A stretch of 14,661 nucleotides of DNA from Hansfordia pulvinata (lineage: Eukaryota > Ascomycota > Sordariomycetes > Xylariales), in contig BJKQ01000058.1 of the NCBI GenBank assembly GCA_006538405.1, positions 1-14,661 on the forward strand, read 5' to 3'. Position 1 is the stretch's first letter. Each line of letters begins with the position of its first letter. Below, piece after piece: positions 1-14,661 of the stretch. The notes under the pieces are model-generated. The model searched no databases. It saw nothing but the letters and a program-made list of their open reading frames with translations, and had not been told where the DNA came from. A program made the translations under genes and the position numbers.

Positions 1-1213
1 GCCCGCGCTCTCCCTCTGTCCTCCTCCTTGTGTCTGGCCCTGGTGCGTTTCCCCCGTGTTGCGTCCCCTTCCGCCGCCGGCTCCCCCCTGGTGGTGCCCT
101 TCCGTCCCTTTCTTTCCGTTTCCGCCTTGCGCCCCTCCTCCCCCCGCCCCCCGCCTTTGCTTTCTCGTCCGGTGCCGCCCGCGTCCCCCCTCCCCTCGTC
201 CGCTCCCGTCGGCCTCGTTTCTGGTTCCGCCTCCGCCGGTCTCTGCTCGTCTTCGCTCCCCTCCCTTCGTTCCTGCTTCCTGCCCCCCTCCTTGGCCCCT
301 GCTTTCGCCGTCGTTCGTCTTCCGTCCCTCCCCGCCTTTCCCCTCTGCCCCCGGCCTCCTGCTGCCCCGCCTGTCCCTCTTCCTCCTTCCGGGTGGTCCT
401 CGCCCCCCCTCGCCCCCCGTCCTCTTCTCTTCTTCCCTGCTCCTGTCTTCGCGCCTCGGCCTGCTTTGCCCCCTCTCCTTTTTTCCCGTCCCCGTCCTGG
501 TTCCCCGCCCCCCCGTGCGGGCCTGGGGTTCCCCCGCGGGCCCGGCCCGGCCGCCCCCGTGCCCGCGGTGCGGCGGCCCGGCCCGCCCGGCCCCCGGTTC
601 CCCTCCGCGCTTTTTCCCTGCCCCCCCTTTCCTCTCCGCTCTTGGCGCTGGCCTTCCCGCGGCTGCTGGCCCCCGCTTGCCCTCCCCTTGTTCCTCGTTC
701 CGGGCTTTCCTTGTCCTCCTTCCCCTTCCCGCCCCCCCGCCCTGTCTCCGTCTTTCTTGTCCTCCTCCCCGCGTCGGGCTTGGGTCCTTTGCGCGCCTGC
801 TGCCTTCCTTGGCTGTCGTCGCCGTTTCTCCGGCTCCTTCTCCGGGGTCGCGCCTCCCCCTCCGTTCCCCGTTGTCCCCCTGGCCGGCCCCGCCCTGCCC
901 TCGCCCGTTGCTCGGGCCGCCCTTTGCCTGCCCCTCGCCGGCGCCCGGCCCTGCGCTTCGCGCCGTTCTTCTGCCTCCCCCGGCGCCCCGCCGGGCCTTG
1001 GTTTTTCTCTCCTCCCTCCTCCCTCCGTGCGTCGGGCTTTTTCGCCTGTCTTCGCTCTCGCCTTCCCCGGTTCTCCCCGTCGTCCGGTCCTCTCCCCCCC
1101 GCTCCCTGCTTTCCTGCGCCCTTCGCCGTTTCGCGGTCTCCTTGCTTCTCCTTCGCCCTGCCTGGCTTCCTCTTTGCGCCCCGCCTCTGCCTCCTGGCCG
1201 CCTCCCCCCGGTC
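1..1213 (-). rRNA. 18S rRNA, 5' part, first copy (3' part cut by window edge)
   Basis: Small-subunit rRNA of the cytosolic ribosome. The 5' end is fixed at 1213: the - strand reads GACCGGGGGGAGG, which is the universal eukaryotic start TACCTGGTTGATT with T shown as G. The next 60 or so bases (1141-1200) follow the conserved 5' domain. The 530 loop lies at 654-671 (- strand GGCCAGCAGCCGCGGGAA, with one extra G). The 790-type AGATACC segment is at 229-244. The helix near GACGGAAGGGCACCACC is at about 88-110, preceded by AAAGAAA as in many Pezizomycotina. The left edge cuts the gene just after the GAGAGCTC segment; the missing part is present in the second copy (7925-8458). Two bases are missing at about 204-209 relative to the second copy and to the conserved core. 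No intron is seen. Confidence 0.96.
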
Positions 1214-1923
1214 CCTCTCGTGCGCCGGGGTTGGCCCTCCCCGCCCGGCGGCCGGGCCGCCTTCGTTCCTGCCTGCTGCCCCTCCCCGCCGCTCGGTGGG
1301 CCGCTCCGGCGCTCTGGGCCGGGCCCTTCCCCCGCTGTCGCGCCCTCCGCTTTTCCCCTCTCCCTTCCCCCGGCCTTGGTCCGCCGCCCTTTGGGTTTTT
1401 TCGGCCCTCGTGTGCCTTCTCCGCCCCCCGCGGCGCCGCTGTCCCGCCGGTTCCCGGGCCGCCGCGCGTTCCCCTCGGGCCGGTCTCTCCCGCTGCTTTC
1501 CGTCTCGTCCTCGCCCGCGGCCCCTCCTCTCCCCGCCCCTCCTTTCGCTGTCCCGCCGCCGCGCCCCCGCCTTTGGCCTCCTCGCTCGCGCTGCCGCCGC
1601 GCCCTCGGGGGGTCGGTCCCGCTCTGCCTCCCCCGCCCGCGCCGCCGCTGCCCGGCTGTCCCCGCCCCCGCCCCGGCCCCCGCGCTGCCCGCGCCCTCCT
1701 GCGGCGCCGGCCCTGGCCGCTCGGCCCTGGCCCGGCCTCCCTGCGCCCCCCCGTGGCCCTCCCTCCGTCCGGTCCGGGTCCCCGGGGCCCGCCGCCCGGC
1801 CCGCTGTCCTCCCGTGGCTGCCTGGCGCCCGCCCCCTTTTCTCGGGCCTGCCCCCTTCGCGGCTGCGCCGCGCTCCGCCCTCGTTCTGCTTTCTCCGCTC
1901 TCCTGCTTTCGCTTTCTCCTCTC
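1214..1923 (-). other. Probable 5' external transcribed spacer of the 18S gene
   Basis: This stretch of about 710 bases lies immediately upstream of the 18S 5' end in the transcription direction. Yeast has a 5' ETS of about 700 bases, so its extent fits, but I see no direct mark of the transcription start and the boundary at 1923 is only where a duplicated block begins. The text is rich in C, G and short T runs and has no recognisable gene. Because A and C are merged on this strand, snoRNA pairing sites and hairpins cannot be judged. The copy at 9683 to about 10389 has the same content with run-length differences. Confidence 0.55.
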
Positions 1924-2056
1924 CCCCCCGCCCCCCTTGGTCTCCCCCCTCGCCTCGGCGGGCTCTGGTGCGCCTTTGGCCTTTCCGCCCCCCGCTTTTT
2001 GGTGCGTTTTCGCCGCTGCCCGTGCGCCCCCTCCCTCCCTCTCCGTCCTGCCCGTT
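1924..2056 (-). repeat. IGS duplicated block, 18S-proximal copy
   Basis: About 133 bases are repeated in direct orientation at 3299-3432 (offset about 1375). The match covers CCTTGGTCTCC, the CTCGCCTCGGCGGGCTCTGG stretch, TGCGCCTTTGGCCTTTCCGC and the end GTCCTGCCCGTT. Differences between the two are mostly run lengths, after which the sequences part (TTTTGCGG here, CGTTCCCC in the other). This copy lies about 710 bases upstream of the 18S start, where an RNA polymerase I promoter and initiation site would be expected. A promoter duplicated as an upstream spacer promoter is a known rDNA arrangement. The promoter role is inferred from position and duplication only. Confidence 0.85.
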
Positions 2057-2540
2057 TTTTGCGGCCTTCGTCCCCTTCGCCTTCCCCCCCGCGCCCCCCC
2101 CTCCCGCCGCCCCCCTGCCCCCCTCGGCCTGCCCCGCGGCCCCCCCTCCCCCTCCGCCTCCGCCTCCCCTCCGGCTCCCCCCGCCCTGCCCCTCCCCTCC
2201 TGCCCCCGGGGGGGGTGCCCCTGGGCGGGGGGGTCGTGGTCCCTCGGGGTCCCCTTTTCGCTTTTGGTGGGCCCCTGCCCTGGCCGGGGCTTTGTTCTCG
2301 GGTCTGCCCCGGCCTTTCCCCGCCTCCCCGGGTGGTCCCGGCCGGCTCGGGCGTGCCCCGTTTCGCCCCTCCCTGGGGCGCCGGGGCGGCGCTGCCCTCG
2401 GCCGGGCTCTCTTCCCTTCGCTCGCGGGCTCTCCTGCCCCCGCCTGGTCTGTGTTGCCCGGGTTGCCCGGTGCTGGGCCTCCCCCTCCTGGTTCCCCGGT
2501 GGGTCGGCCGGGCTGGGTGCCGCTCGGGGGTGTCCCGTGC
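2057..2540 (-). other. Intergenic spacer, single-copy stretch
   Basis: About 480 bases of C-rich text between the promoter-proximal block and the subrepeat array. It begins with C runs (2086-2200), including a CTCCGCCTCCGCCTCC stretch, and carries the strongest G runs on this strand (about 2208-2232). I see no gene, tRNA or 5S rRNA here. The corresponding stretch of the second unit is about 10525-11011. Confidence 0.7.
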
Positions 2541-3838
2541 CCTCCCCGGTCCCGGCTCCCGGGTCGGTCCCGGGTCGGCGCCCCCTCCTCCTGCCGCCCC
2601 CTGCTTCCCTCGGGCGCTTCCCGGCCGTTCCGCCGGGTTCCCCTGCGTCTCTTTCGTCTGTCTCTGCTGTCTCCTCCCGCCTCCGCTCGGTTCCCCCTGG
2701 CCCCCTGTGTTTCTTTCCCTCCGTGTCTTCTTCGCCCCTCTTCCCTGTCGCTCCCCTCCCCCCCCTGCCCTCCCCGGCCCCGCCTCGCTGCCCGTTCCTG
2801 TGCTCTGCTGCTCCCGCGGCCTGCCTCCCCTCCCCGGGCCCGCTCCCGTCTCGCTCCGGCCGCGGGCCTTCCCCGCCCCTGCCGGCGCTCCCTCCCCGGG
2901 CTCCCTCCCCGTGCCCCTCCCCGGTCGCGCCCTCCCGGTCCCGGCTCCCGGGTCGGCTCCCCGGCCCCGGCTCCCGGGTCGGTCCGCGCCCTTCCGCGCT
3001 GCGCGGCCCCTCGCCCCCTCCCCCGGGGCCCTCCCCTCTCCGCCTCCTCCTCCCCGCGCCCCCTTGTCCCCCCTCCTCGGGCTCCCGCTCCCCCGGCGCT
3101 TTCGCCGCTTTCGCGCCCTCCTCCCCGGTCCCGCTCCCTGGGCCCCTTCCCCGGTTTCCCCGGGGGCCGTCCCTCCCCCGGCGCGCCCTGCCTGTTCGTG
3201 CCCGGGCCTCCCCGCGCCCCGTCGCGCGCGGTCCCGCGCCCGCTTCGCCCGGCCCCCTTCCCCCGGGCGCCGGGGGGCCCCGCGGCTCCCCCCTCCGTCC
3301 CCCCGCCCCCCTTGGTCTCCCCCTCGCCTCGGCGGGCTCTGGTGCGCCTTTGGCCTTTCCGCCCCCGCTTTTGGGTGCGTTTTCGCCCGCTGCCCGTGCG
3401 CCCCCTCCCCTCCCTCTCCCGTCCTGCCCGTTCGTTCCCCGGTCCCTTCCCGGGTCCGTCCCTCCCCGGGCCCCGCTCCCGGGTCGCCCCTCCCCGGTCG
3501 CGCCTGCGCTGGTCTGCCTCGGGCGCGGTGCCGCCTGTCCCCCGCCTTGGCGCCGCGCGCGCCTCCCCGGTCCCTTCCCGGGTCGCTCCCTCCCCGGTCC
3601 TCTCCCGGGTCCGTGCCTCCCCGGGCGCCGCCTTCCCTGGGTCCTTCTGGGTCCTTCGTCCTCCTCCGGCCTCCGCCCCCGGTCCGGCGCCCCTCCCCGG
3701 CCCTTCCCGGGTCCGTCCTCCCCGGTCCGCTTCGGCCGCGCTTTTCCCCCTCCCGGGTCGGCTCTTTCCCGCCCCTGCCGGGCCTTTCCCTGGGGCGCTC
3801 CCCGGGCCCCGTCGCCTTCGCCGTCGCTCCCGGGTCGG
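2541..3838 (-). repeat. IGS subrepeat array with CCCGGGTC cores, first unit
   Basis: The core CCCGGGTC (often CCCGGGTCGG) recurs at 2558, 2569, 2947, 2973, 3449, 3478, 3577, 3604, 3706, 3752 and 3829, commonly preceded by CTCCCCGGTC or a close variant. Spacing is irregular, so this is a diverged family of short subrepeats and not a clean satellite. Such arrays are usual in the non-transcribed spacer of fungal rDNA, where they may hold enhancer, terminator or replication-fork-barrier sites; none can be assigned here. Each C of the core may be A or C in the real molecule, so the apparent palindrome CCCGGG is not proven. The second copy of the duplicated promoter-like block (3299-3432) sits inside it. 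Confidence 0.85.
3299..3432 (-). repeat. IGS duplicated block, distal copy (possible spacer promoter)
   Basis: Direct repeat of 1924-2056 and of the same size. It lies about 2.1 kb upstream of the 18S start, within the subrepeat array. The two blocks stay alike over their whole length while the flanks are unrelated, which points to selection or recent homogenisation of this segment. If the proximal copy is the polymerase I promoter, this one would be a spacer promoter; that is inference. The equivalent in the second unit is at 11762-11896. Confidence 0.85.
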
Positions 3839-4174
3839 CGGGCGCCTTCCCTCGCCCCCGTCCGCGGCCCCTTCCCGGGCCCTCCCCGCGCCCCCGGCCG
3901 TTTCCCCCTCGCCCCCCCTGCGTGGTGCCCCGGGCTGCGTCGCGGGGCGTCCGTTTCGGTGCCCGCTCTGGCCCCGTCCGTCGCTGCCTTCCCCGCTCCC
4001 CCGCCCCTTCTTGGCCCCCGCCTCCTCTCTCCCTCCCCCTTTTGCCCCGCGCCCCCGGCGGCGCCCGCGGCCTTTCCGGCCCGTCCGCGCGCGGCTTCCC
4101 CGGTCGCCGCCTTGCGCGCCCCCCGCCTCCTGCCCTCCGCCCTCCCTTCTCCCCGCCCCGGCGGGTTGCGCTCT
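3839..4174 (-). other. Spacer just downstream of 28S (3' ETS and terminator region)
   Basis: These 336 bases follow the 28S 3' end in the transcription direction. The 3' external transcribed spacer and polymerase I terminator should lie here. I cannot point to a terminator: the T-rich and Reb1-type signals of fungi are unreadable when T appears as G on the transcribed strand. No gene is seen. The exact boundary with 28S is uncertain by perhaps 20-30 bases. Confidence 0.55.
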
Positions 4175-7100
4175 GCGCCTCTCGGCCCCGTCGGGCTTCC
4201 CCTCCGCCGCTCGTCCCCCCCGGCTCCTCTCCTGCTTCCCGGCCCCTTTTGCCCCGCTCCGTCGTCTGCCCCGGCTTTCCTCCCCGCGTGTTTCCCTTCC
4301 CCTCCGCGCCCCCCCCCTCCCTTCGCGCGCGGTGGCGGCCTCGCCCGCTCCGCTCCGCGGCCGGCGCCTCTTCTTCTCCGTCTCCCCCGTGTGGGCGGTC
4401 TCCCCGCGTTCTGGCCTGGGTTCTGCCTTCGCGGCGTTCCGCCCTTCCCCGCCGCTGGTCGCGTCGCGGCCCTGCCCGGTCGGCCCGCCGCCCCCCCCTT
4501 CTCTGCCTGCGCGGTTCCTCTCGTCCTCCGCTCCCTTCCCCTTGCGGTGCGGTCCTCCGTCGGGTCCCCTCCCCTGTCTCCCGCCGGTCTCCCCCCGCTC
4601 CCGTTCCCTCTTCGTGGGTGCCCCCTCCCCCGCTTCCCGCCTTCTGCTTCGGTCTGCTCGGCCGCGCCGCCCTCGCCGGCTCCCCCGCGCCGTCGCTCTG
4701 GCCGCTTGGCCGCCCCCGCCCGTTCTCCCTGTGGTCCCTTTTCTGGCCCCTCTCGCCTCCCCTTTCGCGGGCCTCCCGGCTCGCTCGGCCCCCTTTCCTG
4801 GTTTGTCTTCCCCCTGCCCCTCCCCTCCCGGGGCCTTTTCCCCTTTTGTTCTCCTGGCGCTTTCTGTTCTCCCTGCGCCCCCTTCGGCCCCCTGCGTTCT
4901 GGTTTCCCCGCTGTGCCGCCCCCGCCCCCCCCCCCCTGCCCCTGTCTTCCCCCGGGTCGGCCCGCGCCGGCCCTTCCTCCCCGCCGTTGGCCGTCCCTCC
5001 CGCCCCGCTTCCTTGCCTCCGTCCCCCCCTCGGCGTCGCGGTCTTTCCCCGGCGCCGCCGCTCCCTCCTCTTCTCCCCCTCCTCTGTCTTTTCCCCTGTC
5101 CCCCTCGCGTCCCGCTCCCCCGGGTCTTCTTTCCCCGCTGCTTCTGCCCCGCCCGTTCCCTTGGCTGTGGTTTCGCTCGCTCGTCGCTCGGGCCCGTGGG
5201 CCTCTCGTTCCTCCCTTCCTGCGCGTCCCTCCTTCGCTGCCGCGGCCTTTGGCTCCCTTCCGCGCGTCCTCGTTCCTCCCGCCGTTTCCCCGCGCTTGGT
5301 TGCCTTTCTTCCCTTTGCCCTTCCGCGCCCTGGGCCGCCCTCCCCTTGCGTCCCCTCCCTTTCTGCCCCTCGCCCTGCTCTGTTTTCCTTCGCCCGTCCG
5401 CTTCCCCTTGTCCGTCCCCGTTCTCCGTTGGTTGTTCCCCGTGCGCCGGCCGGCCGCCGCCTGCCCCCGGCGTCCGCCCCCCGCTGCTGCCCGCCGCCGG
5501 CCGGTTGCCCGGCTCGTGGCGCTCTGCTCCCGCGCCGTCCCCCCCCGGCCCCCCGCCCCCCCCCTTCGCGCCCCTCCTTCTCCCGCCGTTCCGGCTCTCT
5601 TTTGCCGCCTTCCCTTCTCTCCCTTGTTCTCTCCCCCGCGGCTGTTCCCCTTGGCGCCCTGCTGCGGTTCTGCGTCCGCCCTGGCTTGCGCCTTCTTCCT
5701 TCCCGTGGCTTTTCCCGGGCCGTCGGGGGCGCCCCCGCCCCGCCCGCGGTGTCGGGCTCTTCCGGCCGTTCCCCCTCGCTCCGGCCCCCCGCTTTCCGGG
5801 TGCTCGCCCGTTCCGCCGCCCCGCGCCCTCTGCCCCGGGCCCCGCCGTCGTCTCCCCGTTCCGTTGCGTTGCCGCGCCCCCCCCCTCCCGGCGCCGGCCT
5901 CTTGCCCGGCTTCCCTTTCGCCCTCCGGCGCCCCGTGCGCCCTTTGCCCCGGCCCTTCCCTCTGGCTTCGGCTCGGCTCCCCCCGTCCCCCCGCTGTTCC
6001 CCTGGCCCCTTTCCCCCTTCGGTCCTTCCCGTTCTCCTTGCCGTCTTTGCTCCTCCCCCCGCTCTGCCCTCGGGGCCGTTCGCCCCGGGCTCCCGCCCTC
6101 GGCTTCGTCCCTGCCCCCCCGGCCGCCTCCTCCTCCGGGCCTCGTTTCTCCCCTGCGGGCGCGGTCTGGGTGCGCCGCTTGCGCGCCCTCCCTTTTCCGG
6201 GCTCGTCCCTTCGGCCGGTGCGTTGTTCCCCCGTCCTTCGCGGCTTCCGCCTTCCCTGGCCCCCGTCCTGCTGTCCCGCTGTCCTCCCCTTTTGTGGTGT
6301 CTGCTGCGCGTCTCCTCTGGCCCCTTCCCCTCGCGTTCGGTTCCTCCCGCCTCGCCCGTTCTGCTTCCCCCCTGGCCCCCTCGTGTTGCTCCCTTCGCCT
6401 GCCCCCGTTCCCTTCCGTCCCCGGGCTTCTTCCCTCTTTCCCGTTTGCGCCTGGCTGCCGGCTCTCTCGCGCCCCGCGTCCCTCCTCCTTCGCTTTCCCT
6501 CCTCCCCCTGCCCCCCCCTGCTCTCCTGCGGGCCCCTTCGGCGGTCCCCCGCTCCTCGCTGGTTCGCTTCGTCTTTCGCCCCCTGCGCCGCTTTGCCGCT
6601 CGCTTTGCCCGTCCGCCCCGCTGCGCGCCTCCCCCCGCGTTTCCTCTGGCTTCCCCTCTCCCCGCCTCGTTCCCCCTCTTTCGGGTCCGCCCCGTTCTGC
6701 TCTTCCTCCCTCCCTCCGCCGCCCTCCGGCTCGGTCGCTGCTGCCCCCTCCGGCTCTCCCCTCCGTTCCCTTTCCTTCCGCGTGCGGGTTTGCCCCCCCC
6801 CCTCGCCCCCCTGTTCGCCTCCTTGGTCCGTGTTTCCCGCCGGGTCCCTGCTGCCCCTTCTGCCCCCTCCTTGCCCTGCGCGTCCCTCGGTCCCCGCGCG
6901 GGTCTTCTGCCCCGGGCTCTCCCCTCCCGGCGGCGTCCCCTTCCCGCCGCCTTTCTCCTCCCGCCGCCCCCGCTGTTGGCCTCCCCCCGGGGCCGTGCCC
7001 CCGCGCGCCCGCCGGCTGCTCCCCTCGCCCCCGTCTGGTCCTCCGCGCTTCCCTTTCCCCCTTTCCCGTGCTCTTTCCCCCTCTTTTCCCCGTGCTTTTC

Positions 7101-7459
7101 CTCTTTCGCTCCCTCTCCTTGTGCGCTCTCGGTCTCTGGCCGGTCTTTCGCTTTCGCCGCCCTTTCCCTCCCCTTTCGCGCCGCCTTCCCCCTCCTCGCC
7201 TCGTCGCCGGCGCCTTCCCGCGCCTTGGTGGCCCCTCGTCCGGGGCTCTCCCCCTCTCCGGCGTCCTGTTCCCCGGCCCTCGCCCGGTCCCGCGTCCCCT
7301 GCCTCCTCTGCCCCTTCCCTTCGGCCCCGCCGGCCCGCTTTCCCCTTTGCGCTGTTGCCGCTTCCCTCGCCGTTCCTCGGGCCCTCCCTGTTGGTTTCTT
7401 TTCCTCCGCTTCTTGCTCTGCTTCCGTTCCGCGGGTCTTCCTCCCTGCTCCGCGGTCCC
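4175..7459 (-). rRNA. 28S (25S/26S-type) rRNA, complete
   Basis: Large-subunit rRNA, holding the peptidyl-transferase centre. The 5' end is placed at 7459, where the - strand gives GGGACCGCGGAGCAGG, that is TTGACCTCGGATCAGG with T shown as G. The standard LSU primer region follows at 7381-7440 (AAGCGGAGGAAAAGAAACC). The conserved core CTCTTAAGGTAGCCAAATG reads at 5239-5264, the GATGTCGGCTCTTCC segment of the catalytic domain at 4656-4674 and the sarcin-ricin loop AGTACGAGAGGAACC at 4513-4527. The terminal GTAGAGTAGCC and TTAAGCC segments lie at about 4193-4250. The 3' end is set near 4175 by length and loss of recognisable 28S sequence, so it is approximate. Length is about 3285, slightly short of typical fungal 28S, in keeping with under-called runs. 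The homing-endonuclease site around CTCTTAAGGTAGC is uninterrupted. Confidence 0.95.
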
Positions 7460-7614
7460 CCCTGCCCCCTTGGGTGTTTCGCGGCCGGGGCCCCCGCCCT
7501 TCCGCCGCGCGCCCGCCTTCCTCCGCTTCGCGCTTCCTGCCCCTCCGCCGCTGCCTTTGCGGCGCTGCCTTTTCCGGCCGGCTCCCCCGCTCCGCCCCCG
7601 GGCTTCCGGGTTTG
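7460..7614 (-). other. Internal transcribed spacer 2 (ITS2)
   Basis: The 155 bases between the 5.8S 3' end and the 28S 5' end, removed during pre-rRNA processing. The length is normal for ascomycetes. It opens on the - strand with CAAACCCGGAAGCC, which fits a CAAACCCT(T/G)AAGCC-type start of Pezizomycotina ITS2. Species-level use is blocked because T and G of the rRNA strand are merged. Confidence 0.93.
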
Positions 7615-7771
7615 CCCTGCCGCTCGCCCCGGCCTGCCCCCTCGCCTCCTCCTGGGCGCCCTGTGCGTTCCCCGCTTCGCTGCTTCCCTGCCTTCTGCCC
7701 TTCCCCTTCCTTCTCGCCTTTCGCTGCGTTCTTCCTCGCTGCCCGCCCCCCGCGCTCCGTTGTTGCCCGTT
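7615..7771 (-). rRNA. 5.8S rRNA, complete
   Basis: The 5.8S rRNA pairs with the 28S 5' end in the large subunit. The - strand starts AACGGGCAACAACGGAGC, matching AACTTTCAACAACGGATC with T as G. It follows the fungal sequence through the GAAGAACGCAGCGAAA core (about 7721-7738) and GAACGCACA (about 7660-7672) to the GAGCGTCATTT end at 7615. Length is 157, against 158 in yeast. It is the clearest single proof of one-for-one replacement, since nearly the whole gene stays aligned with no shift. Confidence 0.97.
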
Positions 7772-7924
7772 TTCCCTTCTTCTGCTTTTCCCTCCGCCGT
7801 GCTCCCCTTCCCCCGCGTTTGGTTTTCCCCCGGCGGTCCCGGGTCGGTCGCGCGCTGCTCGCTCCCGGGCGCCGCCGCGGCCCCCTCGGTCCGTTCCCCT
7901 GGGTTGGGCGTTTCGCCCCCTCTG
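7772..7924 (-). other. Internal transcribed spacer 1 (ITS1)
   Basis: The 153 bases between the 18S 3' end and 5.8S. The first 40 or so bases on the - strand (7885-7930) fit an ITS1 opening of the type CATTACAGAGTT, CTAAACTCCCAACCC, CATGTGAACTTACC with T shown as G, the pattern I associate with Xylariales. A TTGCCTCGGCGG-like segment follows. The length is usual for Sordariomycetes. The family-level hint comes from memory of typical sequences and should be treated as moderate. Confidence 0.93.
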
Positions 7925-9682
7925 TCCTGCTCCCTCCGCTGGTTCCCCCCGGCGCCCTTGTTCCGCCTTTTCCTTCCTCTCCCTGCCCGCGTTTGGCTCC
8001 CTTTCCGGCCCTGCGGTGTCGTTGCCGCCTCCTCTGGGCCCGTCCGCCCGCCTCCCTGCGCCCTTCCCTCGGTCGTCGCGCCGGGCGGTGTGTCCCCCGG
8101 GCCGGGCCGTCCTCCCCGCCCGTTGCTGCCTTCCGCTTCCTCGGGCTTCCTCGTTGCCGCGCCCTCCTTGCCCTGCTCTCTCCCCGCCCGCCCGGGTTTC
8201 CCCCGCTTCCCCGGGTCTCTCTCCCCCGGCCGTCCTCGCTGGCCCTGTCCGTGTCCCGCGCGTGCGGCCCCGCCCCTCTCCGGGCCTCCCCGCCCTGTTC
8301 TTGCCTCCCCTTCCCTCCGCTTGCGCGGCTCGTCCTCTCCGCCGCCCGCGTCCTGCCCCGCCCTCCGGGCTCTTTCGCCGGTTCCGGTCTCGTTCGTTCT
8401 CGCCCTTCCGCCGCCCCTCCTCCCCCCTCCGCCCGGCCCTGCCCCCCCCCCCCCCCTCCCCCGCGCTCTCCCTCTGTCCCTCCTCCTTGTGTCTGGCCCT
8501 GGTGCGTTTCCCCGTGTTGCGTCCCCTTCCGCCGCCGGCTCCCCCCTGGTGGTGCCCTTCCGTCCCTTTCTTTCCGTTTCCGCCTTGCGCCCCTCCTCCC
8601 CCCGCCCCCCCGCCTTTGCTTTCTCGTCCGGTGCCGCCCGCGTCCCCCCTCCCTCGTCCGCTCCCTCGTCGGCCTCGTTTCTGGTTCCGCCTCCGCCGGT
8701 CTCTGCTCGTCTTCGCTCCCCTCCCTTTCGTTCCTGCTTCCTGCCCCCCTCCTTGGCCCCTGCTTTCGCCGTCGTTCGTCTTCCGTCCTCCCCGCCTTTC
8801 CCCTCTGCCCCCGGCCTCCTGCTGCCCCCGCCTGTCCCTCTTCCTCCTTCCGGTGGTCCTCGCCCCCCCCCTCGCCCCCCCGTCCTCTTCTCTTCTTCCC
8901 TGCTCCTGTCTTCGCGCCTCGGCCTGCTTTGCCCCCTCTCCTTTTTTCCCCGTCCCCGTCCTGGTTCCCCGCCCCCCCGTGCCGGGCCTGGGGTTCCCCG
9001 CGGGCCCGGCCCGGCCGCCCCCGTGCCCGCGGTGCGGCGGCCCGGCCCGCCCGGCCCCGGTTCCCCTCCGCGCTTTTTCCCTGCCCCCCTTTCCTCTCCG
9101 CTCTTGGCGCTGGCCTTCCCGCGGCTGCTGGCCCCGCCTTGCCCTCCCCTTGTTCCTCGTTCCGGGCTTTCCTTGTCCTCCTTCCCCTTCCCCGCCCCCC
9201 CGCGCCCTGTCTCCGTCTTTCTTGTCCCTCCTCCCCGCGTCGGGCTTGGGTCCTTTGCGCGCCTGCTGCCTTCCTTGGCTGTCGTCGCCGTTTCTCCGGC
9301 TCCTTCTCCGGGGTCGCGCCCTCCCCTCCGTTCCCCGTTGTCCCCCTGGCCGGCCCCGCCCCTGCCCTCGCCCGTTGCTCGGGCCGCCCTTTGCCTGCCC
9401 CTCGCCGGCGCCCGGCCCTGCGCTTCGCGCCGTTCTTCTGCCTCCCCCGGCGCCCCGCCGGGCCTTGGTTTTTCCTCTCCTCCCTCCCTCCTCCGTGCGT
9501 CGGGCTTTTTCGCCTGTCTTCGCTCTCGCCTTCCCCGGTTCTCCCCGTCGTCCGGTCCTCTCCCTCCCCGCTCCCTGCTTTCCTGCGCCCTTCGCCGTTT
9601 CGCGGTCTCCTTGCTTCTCCTTCGCCCTGCCTGGCTTCCTCTTTGCGCCCCGCCTCTGCCTCCTGGCCGCCTCCCCCCGGTC
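7925..9682 (-). rRNA. 18S rRNA, complete
   Basis: Complete small-subunit rRNA gene. The 5' end is at 9682 (same TACCTGGTTGATT start as the first copy). The 530 loop is at 9116-9132, the decoding-site segment GTACACACCGCCCGTC reads at 8080-8095, and the end GGATCATTA stops at 7925. The bases before it read as AAGTCGTAACAAGG, then TCTCCGTTGGTGAACC, then AGCGGAGGGATCATTA, the form seen in Sordariomycetes and relatives. Length is 1758, about 40 short of a typical fungal 18S, explained by under-called runs. For example GATTTTGTGGGTGGTGGTG appears as a run of 15 (8442-8456) where 17 are expected. No group I intron is present at the common insertion sites I checked. Between about 8300 and 8410 the rRNA is clearly fungal (GACCTTAACCTGCTAAATAG). 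Confidence 0.97.
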
Positions 9683-10389
9683 CCTCTCGTGCGCCGGGGT
9701 TGGCCCTCCCGCCCGGCGGCCGGGCCGCCTTCGTTCCTGCCTGCTGCCCCTCCCCGCCGCTCGGTGGGCCGCTCCGGCGCTCTGGGCCGGGCCCTTCCCC
9801 CGCTGTCGCGCCCTCCGCTTTTCCCCTCTCCCTTCCCCGGCCTTGGTCCGCCGCCCTTTGGGTTTTTTCGGCCCTCGTGTGCCTTCTCCGCCCCCGCGGC
9901 GCCGCTGTCCGCCGGTTCCCGGGCCGCCGCCGCGTTCCCCTCGGGCCGGTCTCTCCCGCTGCTTTCCGTCTCGTCCTCGCCCGCGGCCCCTCCTCTCCCC
10001 GCCCCTCCTTTCGCTGTCCCGCCGCCGCGCCCCCGCCTTTGGCCTCCTCGCTCGCGCTGCCGCCGCGCCCTCGGGGGGTCGGTCCCGCTCTGCCTCCCCG
10101 CGCCCGCGCCGCCGCTGCCCGGCTGTCCCCGCCCCCCGCCCCGGCCCCGCGCTGCCCCGCGCCCTCCTGCGGCGCCGGCCCTGGCCGCTCGGCCCTGGCC
10201 CGGCCTCCCTGCGCCCCCCGTGGCCCTCCCTCCGTCCGGTCCGGGTCCCCGGGGGCCCGCCGCCCGGCCCGCTGTCCTCCCGTGGCTGCCTGGCGCCCGC
10301 CCCTTTTCTCGGGCCTGCCCCCTTCGCGGCTGCGCCGCGCTCCGCCCTCGTTCTGCTTTCTCCGCTCTCCTGCTTTCGCTTTCTCCTCT

Positions 10390-10524
10390 CCCCCCGCCCC
10401 CCTTGGTCTCCCCCTCGCCTCGGCGGGCTCTGGTGCGCCTTTGGCCTTTCCGCCCCCGCTTTTTGGTGCGTTTTCGCCCGCTGCCCGTGCGCCCCCCTCC
10501 CCTCCCTCTCCCGTCCTGCCCGTT
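10390..10524 (-). repeat. IGS duplicated block, 18S-proximal copy, second unit
   Basis: Counterpart of 1924-2056, about 710 bases upstream of the 18S start at 9682. Its similarity to 11762-11896 is the same as in the first unit, so the duplication is a fixed part of the repeat and not a local read error. Confidence 0.85.
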
Positions 10525-11011
10525 TTTTTGCGGCCTTCGTCCCCTTCGCCTTCCCCCGCGCCCCCCCCCTCCCCGCCCGCCCCCTGCCCCCCTCGCCTGC
10601 CCCGCGGCCCCCCCTCCCCCTCCGCCTCCGCCTCCCCTCCGGCTCCCCCCCGCCCTGCCCCTCCCCTCCTGCCCCCGGGGGGGGTGCCCCTGGGCGGGGG
10701 GGTCGTGGTCCCTCGGGGTCCCCTTTTCGCTTTTGGTGGGCCCCTGCCTGGCCGGGGCTTTGTTCTCGGGTCTGCCCCCGGCCTTTCCCCGCCTCCCCGG
10801 GTGGTCCCGGCCGGCTCGGGCGTGCCCCGTTTCGCCCCCTCCCTGGGGCGCCGGGGCGGCGCTGCCCTCGGCCGGGCTCTCTTCCCTTCGCTCGCGGGCT
10901 CTCCTGCCCCCGCCTGGTCTGTGTTGCCCCGGGTTGCCCGGTGCTGGCCTCCCCCCTCCTGGTTCCCCGGTGGGTCGGCCGGGCTGGGTGCCGCTCGGGG
11001 GTGTCCCGTGC

Positions 11012-12305
11012 CCTCCCCGGTCCCGGCTCCCGGGTCGGTCCCGGGTCGGCGCCCCTCCTCCTGCCGCCCCCTGCTTCCCTCGGGCGCTTCCCGGCCGTTC
11101 CGCCGGGTTCCCCTGCGTCTCTTTCGTCTGTCTCTGCTGTCTCCTCCCGCCTCCGCTCGGTTCCCCCTGGCCCCCTGTGTTTCTTTCCCTCCGTGTCTTC
11201 TTCGCCCCTCTTCCCTGTCGCTCCCCCCCCCTGCCCTCCCCGGCCCCGCCTCGCTGCCCGTTCCTGTGCTCTGCTGCTCCCGCGGCCTGCCTCCCCTCCC
11301 CGGGCCCGCTCCCGTCTCGCTCCGGCCGCGGGCCTTCCCCGCCCCTGCCGGCGCTCCCTCCCCGGGCTCCCTCCCCGTGCCCCTCCCGGTCGCGCCCTCC
11401 CCGGTCCCGGCTCCCGGGTCGGCTCCCCGGCCCCGGCTCCCGGGTCGGTCCGCGCCCTTCCGCGCTGCGCGGCCCTCGCCCCCTCCCCCGGGGCCCTCCC
11501 CCTCCGCCTCCTCCTCCCCCGCCCCCTTGTCCCCCCCTCCTCGGGCTCCGCTCCCCCGGCGCTTTCGCCGCTTTCGCGCCCTCCCCCGGTCCCGCTCCTG
11601 GGCCCCTTCCCCGGTTTCCCCGGGGGCCGTCCCTCCCCCGGCGCGCCCTGCCCTGTTCGTGCCCGGGCCTCCCCCGCGCCCCGTCGCGCGCGGTCCCGCG
11701 CCCGCTTCGCCCGGCCCCTTCCCCCGGGCGCCGGGGGGCCCCGCGGCTCCCCCCCTCCCGTCCCCCCGCCCCCCTTGGTCTCCCCCTCGCCTCGGCGGGC
11801 TCTGGTGCGCCTTTGGCCTTTCCGCCCCCCGCTTTTGGGTGCGTTTTCGCCCGCTGCCCGTGCGCCCCCTCCCCTCCCTCTCCCGTCCTGCCCGTTCGTT
11901 CCCCGGTCCCTTCCCGGGTCCGTCCCTCCCCGGGCCCCGCTCCCGGGTCGCCCCCTCCCCGGTCGCGCCTGCGCTGGTCTGCCTCGGGCGCGGTGCCGCC
12001 TGTCCCCCGCCTTGGCGCCGCGCGCGCCTCCCCGGTCCCTTCCCGGGTCGCTCCCTCCCCGGTCCTCTCCCGGGTCCGTGCCTCCCCGGGCGCCGCCTTC
12101 CCTGGGTCCTTCTGGGTCCTTCGTCCTCCTCCGGCCTCCGCCCCCGGTCCGGCGCCCCCTCCCCGGCCCCTTCCCGGGTCCGTCCCTCCCGGTCCGCTTC
12201 GGCCGCGCTTTTCCCCCTCCCGGGTCGGCTCTTTCCCGCCCCTGCCGGGCCTTTCCCTGGGGCGCTCCCCGGGCCCCGTCGCCTTCGCCGTCGCTCCCGG
12301 GTCGG
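11012..12305 (-). repeat. IGS subrepeat array with CCCGGGTC cores, second unit
   Basis: Counterpart of 2541-3838 with the same order of cores, the first near 11029 and the last at 12296-12305. Order and spacing are conserved between the two units apart from run-length changes, so the array has not expanded or contracted between them. Confidence 0.83.
11762..11896 (-). repeat. IGS duplicated block, distal copy, second unit
   Basis: Counterpart of 3299-3432 and direct repeat of 10390-10524. It lies inside the subrepeat array. A spacer-promoter role is possible but rests only on its duplication and position. Confidence 0.83.
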
Positions 12306-12640
12306 CGGGCGCCTTCCCCTCGCCCCCGTCCGCGGCCCTTCCCCGGGCCCTCCCGCGCCCCCGGCCGTTTCCCCCGCCCCCCCCTGCGTGGTGCCCCGGG
12401 CTGCGTCGCGGGGCGTCCGTTTCGGTGCCCGCTCTGGCCCCGTCCGTCGCTGCCTTCCCCGCTCCCCCGCCCCCTTCTTGGCCCCGCCTCCTCTCTCCCT
12501 CCCCCTTTTGCCCCGCGCCCCCGGCGGCGCCCGCGGCCTTTCCGGCCCGTCCGCGCGCGGCTTCCCCGGTCGCCGCCTTGCGCGCCCCCCGCCTCCTGCC
12601 CTCCGCCCTCCCTTCTCCCCGCCCCGGCGGGTTGCGCTCT

Positions 12641-14661
12641 GCGCCCTCTCGGCCCCGTCGGGCTTCCCTCCGCCGCTCGTCCCCCCGGCTCCTCTCTGCT
12701 TCCCGGCCCCTTTTGCCCCGCTCCGTCGTCTGCCCCGGCTTTCCTCCCCGCGTGTTTCCCTTCCCCTCCGCGCCCTCCCCCCCTCCCTTCGCGCGCGGTG
12801 GCGGCCTCGCCCGCTCCGCTCCGCGGCCGGCGCCTCTTCTTCTCCGTCTCCCCCGTGTGGGCGGTCTCCCCGCGTTCTGGCCTGGGTTCTGCCTTCGCGG
12901 CGTTCCGCCCTTCCCCGCCGCTGGTCGCGTCGCGGCCCTGCCCGGTCGGCCCGCCGCCCCCCCCCTTCTCTGCCTGCGCGGTTCCTCTCGTCCTCCGCTC
13001 CCTTCCCCTTGCGGTGCGGTCCTCCGTCGGGTCCCCTCCCTGTCTCCCGCCGGTCTCCCCCCGCTCCCGTTCCCTCTTCGTGGGTGCCCCCTCCCCGCTT
13101 CCCGCCTTCTGCTTCGGTCTGCTCGGCCGCGCCGCCCTCGCCGGCTCCCCCCGCGCCGTCGCTCTGGCCGCTTGGCCGCCCCCGCCCGTTCTCCCTGTGG
13201 TCCCTTTTCTGGCCCCTCTCGCCTCCCCTTTCGCGGGCCTCCCGGCTCGCTCGGCCCCCTTTCCTGGTTTGTCTTCCCCTGCCCTCCCCTCCCGGGCCTT
13301 TTCCCCTTTTGTTCTCCTGGCGCTTTCTGTTCTCCCTGCGCCCCCTTCGGCCCCCTGCGTTCTGGTTTCCCCGCTGTGCCGCCCCCCCCCCCCCCCTGCC
13401 CCTGTCTTCCCCGGGTCGGCCCGCGCCGGCCCTTCCTCCCCGCCGTTGGCCGTCCCTCCCGCCCCGCTTCCTTGCCTCCGTCCCCCCCCTCGGCGTCGCG
13501 GTCTTTCCCCGGCGCCGCCGCTCCCTCCTCTTCTCCCCCTCCTCTGTCTTTTCCCCCTGTCCCCTCGCGTCCCGCTCCCCGGGTCTTCTTTCCCCGCTGC
13601 TTCTGCCCCGCCCGTTCCCTTGGCTGTGGTTTCGCTCGCTCGTCGCTCGGGCCCGTGGGCCTCTCGTTCCTCCCTTCCTGCGCGTCCCTCCTTCGCTGCC
13701 GCGGCCTTTGGCTCCCTTCCGCGCGTCCTCGTTCCTCCCGCCGTTTCCCCGCGCTTGGTTGCCTTTCTTCCCTTTGCCCTTCCGCGCCCTGGGCCGCCCT
13801 CCCCTTGCGTCCCCTCCCCTTTCTGCCCCTCGCCCTGCTCTGTTTTCCTTCGCCCGTCCGCTTCCCCTTGTCCGTCCCCGTTCTCCGTTGGTTGTTCCCC
13901 GTGCGCCGGCCGGCCGCCGCCTGCCCCCGGCGTCCGCCCCCGCTGCTGCCCGCCGCCGGCCGGTTGCCCGGCTCGTGGCGCTCTGCTCCCGCGCCGTCCC
14001 CCCGGCCCCCCGCCCCCCCCCTTCGCGCCCCTCCTTCTCCCGCCGTTCCGGCTCTCTTTTGCCGCCTTCCCTTCTCTCCCTTGTTCTCTCCCCCGCGGCT
14101 GTTCCCCTTGGCGCCCTGCTGCGGTTCTGCGTCCGCCCTGGCTTGCGCCTTCTTCCTTCCCGTGGCTTTTCCCGGGCCGTCGGGGGCGCCCCCGCCCCGC
14201 CCGCGGTGTCGGGCTCTTCCGGCCGTTCCCCCTCGCTCCGGCCCCCCGCTTTCCGGGTGCTCGCCCGTTCCGCCGCCCCGCGCCCTCTGCCCGGGCCCCC
14301 GCCGTCGTCTCCCCGTTCCGTTGCGTTGCCGCGCCCCCCCCTCCCGGCGCCGGCCTCTTGCCCGGCTTCCTTTCGCCCTCGGGCGCCCCGTGCGCCCTTT
14401 GCCCCGGCCCTTCCCTCTGGCTTCGGCTCGGCTCCCCCCGTCCCCCCCGCTGTTCCCTGGCCCCTTTCCCCCCTTCGGTCCTTCCCGTTCTCCTTGCCGT
14501 CTTTGCTCCTCCCCCCGCTCTGCCCTCGGGGCCGTTCGCCCGGGCTCCCGCCTCGGCTTCGTCCCTGCCCCCCGGCCGCCTCCTCCTCCGGGCCTCGTTT
14601 CTCCCCTGCGGGCGCGGTCTGGGTGCGCCGCTTGCGCGCCCTCCCTTTTCCGGGCTCGTCC
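12641..14661 (-). rRNA. 28S rRNA, 3' part, second copy (5' part cut by window edge)
   Basis: The 3' two kilobases of a second 28S gene. The sarcin-ricin loop reads at 12980-12994, the GATGTCGGCTCTTCC segment at 13121-13139 and the CTCTTAAGGTAGCC core at 13698-13723. The 3' end is set near 12641 by comparison with the first copy and is approximate. The right edge (equivalent to 6208 of the first unit) removes about 1250 bases of the 5' part. One run near 13382-13396 is 15 C, where the first copy has C5-G-C12 (4919-4936), so a G was lost and the run shortened. Confidence 0.94.

Follow-up and report, generated by a model that had tools for sequence, protein, structure and literature searches.

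How can a contig lack one of the four bases entirely and still carry recognizable ribosomal genes? The window analysed here, a stretch of 14,661 bases, is the whole of contig C58 in a fungal assembly of 46.8 Mb and 63 contigs. The first-pass annotation had reported that A is absent from the + strand over 14.6 kb, and the base count bears this out (A 0, C 7,615, G 3,577, T 3,469; total 14,661). Given the decoded A fraction of 0.23 for the + strand, an A-free stretch of 14,661 bases would arise by chance with a probability of about 10^-1671. The absence of A is a sequencing artefact, though a decodable one, and no real biological feature.

About 1.7 tandem rDNA units, with a period of about 8,466 bases, are present on the minus strand (Table 1), in the order 18S-ITS1-5.8S-ITS2-25S-IGS and with conserved rRNA sequence. 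The rDNA is presumably that of an ascomycete, as placed by comparison with yeast rRNA and ITS sequences, and might belong to the order Xylariales. The landmarks proposed earlier all fall into this arrangement: 1141-1213, given as an 18S start, corresponds to the 5' end of the partial 18S gene (1-1212); 7925-8100, given as an 18S end, to the gene terminus at 7925; 7615-7771 to the 5.8S gene (7616-7771), where the 5.8S/ITS2 of reference L002 aligns over 7401-7773; and 7381-7459 to the 28S start, located at 7461 by the yeast alignment, while 5239-5264, 4656-4674 and 4513-4527 lie within the 25S gene (4178-7461). The 5.8S gene matches at 156/156 positions a form decoded from the window and contig C55 themselves, a comparison that is circular. 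Rfam gave no match in the window at the gathering score; with an E-value limit of 10, weak LSU/SSU matches appeared, with LSU_rRNA_eukarya stretches below the gathering score at 6211-6275, 7356-7403 and 5147-5176. When positions 5000-9700 (4,701 of the 14,661 bases) were compared with plasmids in distant mode, a single record was returned, a eukaryotic 18S.

Table 1. Features of the A-free window
Feature	Position	Strand	Basis or remark
Contig C58, whole	1..14661	+	A-free; ~1.7 rDNA units
18S rDNA, partial, second unit (yeast 2-1252)	1..1212	-	T-neutral alignment to yeast 18S
Intergenic spacer, second unit	1213..4177	-	Borders from yeast alignments; A-neutral alignment to C12
25S/28S rDNA, complete	4178..7461	-	Alignment to yeast 25S; Rfam stretches
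5.8S rDNA, with ITS1 and ITS2 on either side	7616..7771	-	L002 alignment 7401-7773; decoded-form match (circular)
18S rDNA, complete	7925..9681	-	Alignments to L003 and yeast 18S
Intergenic spacer, first unit	9682..12644	-	Position between yeast alignments
25S/28S rDNA, partial, first unit (yeast 1291-3395)	12645..14659	-	Alignment to yeast 25S

The partial 25S/28S gene of the first unit is 98% identical to the other copy in the window. Alignment of positions 8460-14653 with 2-6200, using an aligner that tolerates single-base gaps, yielded 3 substitutions and 120 gaps in 6,131 columns, 97 of the 120 gaps being single C's. MAFFT gave 84 substitutions and 81 gaps for the two copies; since only 3 substitutions are left by the gap-tolerant aligner, most of the 84 reflect gap placement. 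Few substitutions and many single-C gaps are found between the copies, as they would be in an unpolished read.

The first-pass annotation had proposed that T of the rRNA strand is read as G throughout, and this rule was compared with references by T-neutral alignment, in which a reference T scores 0 against any letter. T was read as G in 346/407 columns against the fetched eukaryotic 18S L003, and in 56/72 and 55/73 columns of the short alignments to L002 and L001. For yeast rRNA against the complete window copies the values were 419/485 (18S) and 678/818 (25S), with no T retained. Where a yeast T was not read as G it was mostly read as C, which would be consistent with species difference. A stricter comparison, within one genome, is provided by a four-letter spacer copy in C12 (35002-37126), aligned to window positions 2277-4367 (spacer and 25S end) by a procedure blind to A. 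Here A became C in 428/431 cases and C, G and T were mismatched in 0/1,658 aligned columns, so that the proposed rule stands also in the same genome; 36 bases of the normal copy fell in gaps (27 of them A) and 2 were inserted. The rule in the window thus combines substitution with loss of run length, C runs of the + strand often being 1-2 bases short.

The search for more base-lacking contigs that had been suggested proved productive. Five contigs of the assembly are A-less: C58, C55, C56 and C63 throughout, and C44 almost completely, with one A (position 89) within the 20,000 bases read of its 64 kb. This lone A indicates that the loss is not absolute. All 57 further sampled contigs contain A, and A is likewise present in the part of C12 that was examined (C1-C42 were sampled at 400 bases each, and the C12 sample consisted of N). 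C55 carries the same rDNA locus as the window in the opposite orientation, C56 and C63 are in part A-to-C images of mitochondrial contigs, and C44 matches mitochondrial contigs only in its tail; unrelated templates of one data set, nuclear rDNA and mtDNA, are therefore affected.

Comparisons with normal copies of these loci show the same rule, A being called C with the remaining letters unchanged. In C12 against C55, A became C in 410/411 cases, and the other three letters agreed in 1,697/1,697. Between the normal contig C54 and C56, A became C in 3,168/3,169 cases and C, G and T were unchanged in 6,626/6,626, the rule being kept in 9,794/9,795 columns. Columns substituted outside the rule number 1/9,795 for this pair, 66/6,773 for C51 against C56 and 72/7,234 for C62 against C63; the excess in the latter two perhaps reflects alignment beyond homology or passage through rearranged copies.

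Comparison of the window with C55 indicates in which frame the letter is lost. Only four allowed letter pairs occur in 13,300 of 13,318 columns, and jointly the two contigs decode to ordinary ascomycete-like rDNA. Because the same rDNA is hit in both orientations, the loss of A follows the read and is not tied to a biological strand. The earlier suggestion that the A/C distinction was lost in the signal for one strand is supported, with the refinement that the relevant frame is read orientation and not a strand of the rDNA.

Run lengths offer a further distinction. Mixed A/C runs of at least 4, including alternating ones, are shortened like pure runs, whereas most G and T runs of 4-6 have the correct length. 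At length 5, lengths were wrong in 86/171 mixed A/C, 16/31 pure A and 2/4 pure C runs, compared with 0/6 for G and 2/41 for T; at length 4, in 7/33 alternating A/C runs without a doublet, 0/18 G and 4/113 T runs. There was no contrast at length 3 (mixed 22/438, G 5/106, T 4/437), and T runs of exactly 7 were wrong in 3/7 cases. These counts omit runs with unaligned flanks or with another letter inside the segment and include runs from the C51/C56 and C62/C63 pairs. A mirror test of runs of at least 5, with the same two kinds of run omitted, gave 152 A/C runs, of which 98 were shorter in C55 and 3 in the window, and 276 G/T runs, 143 being shorter in the window and 2 in C55. Neighbouring A and C are undercounted as one homopolymer. 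Since mixed runs are shortened like pure ones, the merging of the two letters preceded base or consensus calling and did not take place in the finished text.

The most probable reading, to which we assign a probability of roughly 0.93, is that the template was ordinary four-letter rDNA, that A and C were confused in the signal of some long reads, and that strand-separate consensus preserved the result. Four results support the cause proposed by the first-pass annotation, a signal that no longer separated A from C: the A-less contigs, the orientation of C55, the normal copies and the run errors. The template would come from an ascomycete-like fungus. At the sequence level, A of the read strand was called C, G and T being called as usual, and a share of the long single-molecule reads probably came from an instrument or a base caller blind to A against C. 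With A and C forming one symbol before the call, adjacent A's and C's acted as a homopolymer, and adjoining runs were for that reason undercounted. Each strand of a molecule would misread its own A's, so that the strands disagree at every A-T pair, and a per-strand consensus would emit A-less reads in both orientations. Overlapping only with one another in the same orientation, such reads would build contigs of their own at high copy number: rDNA in two orientations, and mtDNA. A-less reads and high copy numbers are thus probably behind the contigs. We infer the instrument and the exact failing step; the per-strand consensus probably came from PacBio by-strand or heteroduplex splitting. PacBio A and C analogues would share a common spectral channel and be told apart by amplitude, although the literature search did not confirm this.

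Two improbable alternatives survive about equally. Software might have recoded the raw reads, for example in a three-letter step, before consensus and assembly, with run errors added by the consensus. This would also set the merge before consensus and fits the run-length data, but the 57 sampled contigs and the C12 stretch hold A, the affected loci are also present as normal copies, and there is no motive for recoding just some reads. The other is a nanopore base-calling failure with C called for A. Nanopore reads are inherently single-stranded and would give one orientation per read without strand splitting; however, adherence to the rule in 9,794/9,795 columns of C54 against C56, and loss of run length mainly in the A/C symbol, agree better with an optical two-channel instrument, and nanopore current changes across alternating A/C runs.

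Slightly less probable again is an accident at the text level, in which search-and-replace or a defective complement table turned A into C after base calling. It would suit the clean one-letter rule, the near absence of substitutions between C54 and C56 and the restriction to a subset of contigs. Replacement in finished text would leave mixed A/C runs intact and cannot shorten ACACA, yet such runs are short, and from length 4 mixed and pure runs have similar error rates, whereas most G/T runs of 4-6 are right. The same locus is, moreover, hit in both orientations on separate contigs with differing run errors. The run-length data refute the accident unless it befell pre-consensus raw reads. A true three-letter DNA of natural or engineered origin, which the first-pass annotation had already rated much less likely, or an A-to-C mutator or editing process has nothing in its favour except the letters and a negligible probability, as normal copies in C12 and C54 are identical at C, G and T in all aligned columns, the loss tracks read orientation instead of a particular DNA strand or molecule, both nuclear rDNA and mtDNA are hit, and run errors cluster in the A/C symbol, with pure C runs affected too.

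The preferred reading, A/C confusion in the signal, resembles several known systems in part. By-strand PacBio circular consensus likewise produces one consensus per strand and keeps strand differences; in PMC9159922 CCS v6.0.0 was run with the by-strand option, there deliberately and with four-letter reads, whereas here the strands would differ through misreading of their own A's. As in long-read homopolymer errors, deletions rise with run length, but here they extend to mixed A/C runs, which are not true homopolymers. Fluorescent sequencers show colour-channel crosstalk of A with C and of G with T; the same letter pair is confused here, but crosstalk gives scattered errors and not a near-total collapse over tens of kilobases. 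Bisulfite or a similar conversion also removes one letter per strand (for bisulfite, C in favour of T) but should leave run lengths intact, whereas here A became C and runs were shortened. No conversion chemistry is known to turn A into C.

A literature search with narrow terms turned up no description of A-less reads. A 5.8S pattern that carried K for every minus-strand G of the window, and so would recognize the normal form as well as the A-less one, hit no viral contig and one genome contig (L002, normal), and neither an A-to-C nor a T-to-G version of a 900-base E. coli 16S fragment had a match in 20,395 E. coli records. With odds a little better than even, this is a seemingly undescribed failure class of single-molecule sequencing, in which a fraction of the otherwise accurate long reads have two letters completely merged in their own frame, pass quality filters, assemble at high copy and form opposite-orientation contig pairs decodable almost without loss.

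The relevance of the finding lies in assembly quality control rather than in biology. A base-lacking contig matches little in ordinary searches, and it may therefore slip past contamination filters and pass as novel sequence. The run-length signature separates a signal-level from a text-level cause, and a screen for any contig with one base below 0.1% would reveal such cases. If the phenomenon is general, public eukaryotic assemblies would contain overlooked contigs of this kind among their unclassifiable sequence.

The window spans the whole of contig C58, one of 63 contigs in an assembly of 46,805,188 bases, and a base count gives 0 A among its 14,661 bases. The rRNA genes lie on its minus strand (see the table of genes), which bears out the first-pass description of rDNA devoid of A on the plus strand. 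Since 25-mers recur about 8,466 bases apart, the window represents about 1.7 tandem rDNA units. Rfam gave no match in the window at the gathering score; with E up to 10, four stretches matched LSU_rRNA_eukarya and one matched SSU, the mismatches falling mostly at consensus U, where the window has G.

rRNA genes located in the window
Gene	Position	Strand
25S, partial	14659-12645	minus
18S	9681-7925	minus
5.8S	7771-7616	minus
25S	7461-4178	minus
18S, partial	1212-1	minus

The first-pass annotation had proposed that T on the rRNA strand reads as G, with the other letters kept. References were aligned under a scheme that gave T a score of 0 whatever the letter opposite, so that this substitution was not forced. 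T was read as G in 346/407 columns with a fetched eukaryotic 18S (L003; alignment score 1494, compared to 56 for one shuffled copy) and, in the complete window copies, in 419/485 columns with yeast 18S and 678/818 with yeast 25S. The exceptions were mostly T read as C, as species difference predicts. A strict test was provided by C12:35002-37126, a stretch of the same assembly, found by search, that carries the spacer region in normal four-letter form. When it was aligned to the window with A scoring 0, A became C in 428 of 431 columns (the rest being 2 G and 1 T), and the other three letters were kept in 1,658/1,658, as the rule states. Gaps comprised 36 normal-copy bases (27 A, 5 C, 2 G, 2 T), and 2 bases were inserted.

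Three of the outside records carry rRNA under unrelated labels. L003 (NZ_CP050525.1, 1-1764), filed as an Acinetobacter baumannii plasmid, is identified by alignment as a eukaryotic 18S gene, because nearly its whole length aligns to the window's 18S; it is presumably plant-like, and its first letters resemble the end of a sequencing adapter. An Armatimonadota MAG contig (JACMMA010000039.1, 4052-4205) contains a 5.8S rRNA gene and is therefore probably eukaryotic contamination. The end of an IMG/VR viral contig (IMGVR_UViG_3300029277_000005, 4115-4503) is eukaryotic LSU rRNA.

The second A-less rDNA contig, C55, carries the same rDNA reversed: in a two-letter alphabet, 2,189 60-mers of its first 10 kb are shared with the window in opposite orientation, and 0 24-mers in the same orientation. 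A is changed to C on the rRNA-sense strand in C55 and on the antisense strand in the window; against C12, 410/411 aligned A's of C55 became C and 1,697/1,697 other letters were kept. Since the same rDNA is thus affected on opposite strands, the loss of A is tied to the read, not to the biological strand. The A/C merge suggested at first pass is supported, while its restriction to one strand needs refinement, both biological strands being hit. The window and C55 pair only as G/G, G/T, A/C or C/C in 13,300/13,318 columns, as they should if A is missing from each in its own frame. Their joint four-letter decoding is identical to yeast 18S in 1,628/1,772 columns and to 25S in 2,898/3,244, and its ITS has an ascomycete-like appearance.

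Run lengths reveal the stage of the merge. Across mitochondrial pairs of normal and A-less contigs, long A/C runs are more often of wrong length than short ones, irrespective of composition (see the run table). No clear contrast was seen in these pairs at length 3 (mixed A/C 22/438, G 5/106, T 4/437), and T runs of 7 were wrong in 3/7.

Runs of wrong length in mitochondrial pairs, by run length
Run	Length 4	Length 5
Pure A	18/75	16/31
Pure C	4/14	2/4
Mixed A/C	57/281	86/171
Alternating A/C without doublet	7/33	5/11
G	0/18	0/6
T	4/113	2/41

The rDNA shows a mirrored pattern. Among 152 A/C runs of at least 5, the C55 version is the shorter one in 98 and the window's in 3; among 276 such G/T runs, the window has the shorter version in 143 and C55 in 2. 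Between the window's two copies, set against yeast, length differs in 14/131 mixed G/T runs and in few pure ones (T 1/157, G 3/160, C 1/295, A 1/365). Because mixed A/C runs are shortened like pure ones, A and C were a single symbol at base or consensus calling, in support of the first-pass view that their distinction was lost in the signal. Letter replacement in the finished text is ruled out, as ACACA cannot be shortened that way.

A was thus merged into C in the contig frame, before run lengths were fixed, in part of the assembly. The platform was probably a long-read optical instrument with A and C in a common channel; the literature searched gave no confirmation of such sharing. A consensus made per strand would have kept the two strands separate. 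Per-strand consensus is an existing mode (PMC9159922). Over 6,131 aligned columns, the two rDNA units of the window show 3 substitutions and 120 gaps relative to each other, and 97 of these gaps consist of a single C; the window is therefore probably one unpolished read.

Other contigs lacking one base, which the first-pass annotation had suggested looking for, were surveyed in the first 10 kb of 20 contigs (C43-C57 and C59-C63) and in 400 bases each of C1-C42, samples that leave room for A-less sequence in other parts of the large contigs. Where read, 5/63 contigs (C44, C55, C56, C58 and C63; 130,314 bases at full length) lack A, always on the plus strand. C55, C56 and C63, read whole, have zero A; C44 has one among 20,000 bases read of 64,463, at position 89. 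The 400-base sample of C12 was N, but A makes up 458 of the 2,125 bases of C12:35002-37126.

Under the A-to-C rule, positions 348-14536 of C56 (19,347 bases) and 19-7370 of C63 (12,423 bases) align to C51, C54 and C62, their remainder being unmatched; the C44 tail matches C51 and C54. C51, C54 and C62 are read as mitochondrial because of their bacterial-type rRNA and tRNAs, and group I introns in C62. Over 10,000 bases of C54 and C56, A became C in 3,168/3,169 columns and other letters were kept in 6,626/6,626, with 205 deletions and 8 insertions. Less clean were C51 against C56 and C62 against C63, with 66/6,773 and 72/7,234 columns substituted outside the rule. The template kinds identified here, rDNA and mtDNA, are high-copy in fungi. 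A-less reads, overlapping only one another, would need such high-copy templates to build contigs.

Two further features of the assembly were observed. C51 (1-10000) is fold-back-like, mirrored about position 6,890, with 4,564 30-mers also inverted and three tRNAs (Glu, Met, Met) mirrored; it is perhaps a read-through hairpin chimera. C45, C49, C50, C53, C57, C59 and C61 (first 10 kb) are small and AT-rich, and no open frame of at least 100 codons (standard code) was found in the first 10 kb of C50, C53, C57 and C59; these seven are perhaps repeat-rich or RIP-affected nuclear sequence.

Overall, the absence of A from the window is confirmed, and the explanation first offered is supported and can be sharpened. 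No published report of such a failure mode was found in the literature searched. The A-less rDNA is not a biological feature; its value is that of a clean, decodable example of this failure mode, together with an easy screen for it.
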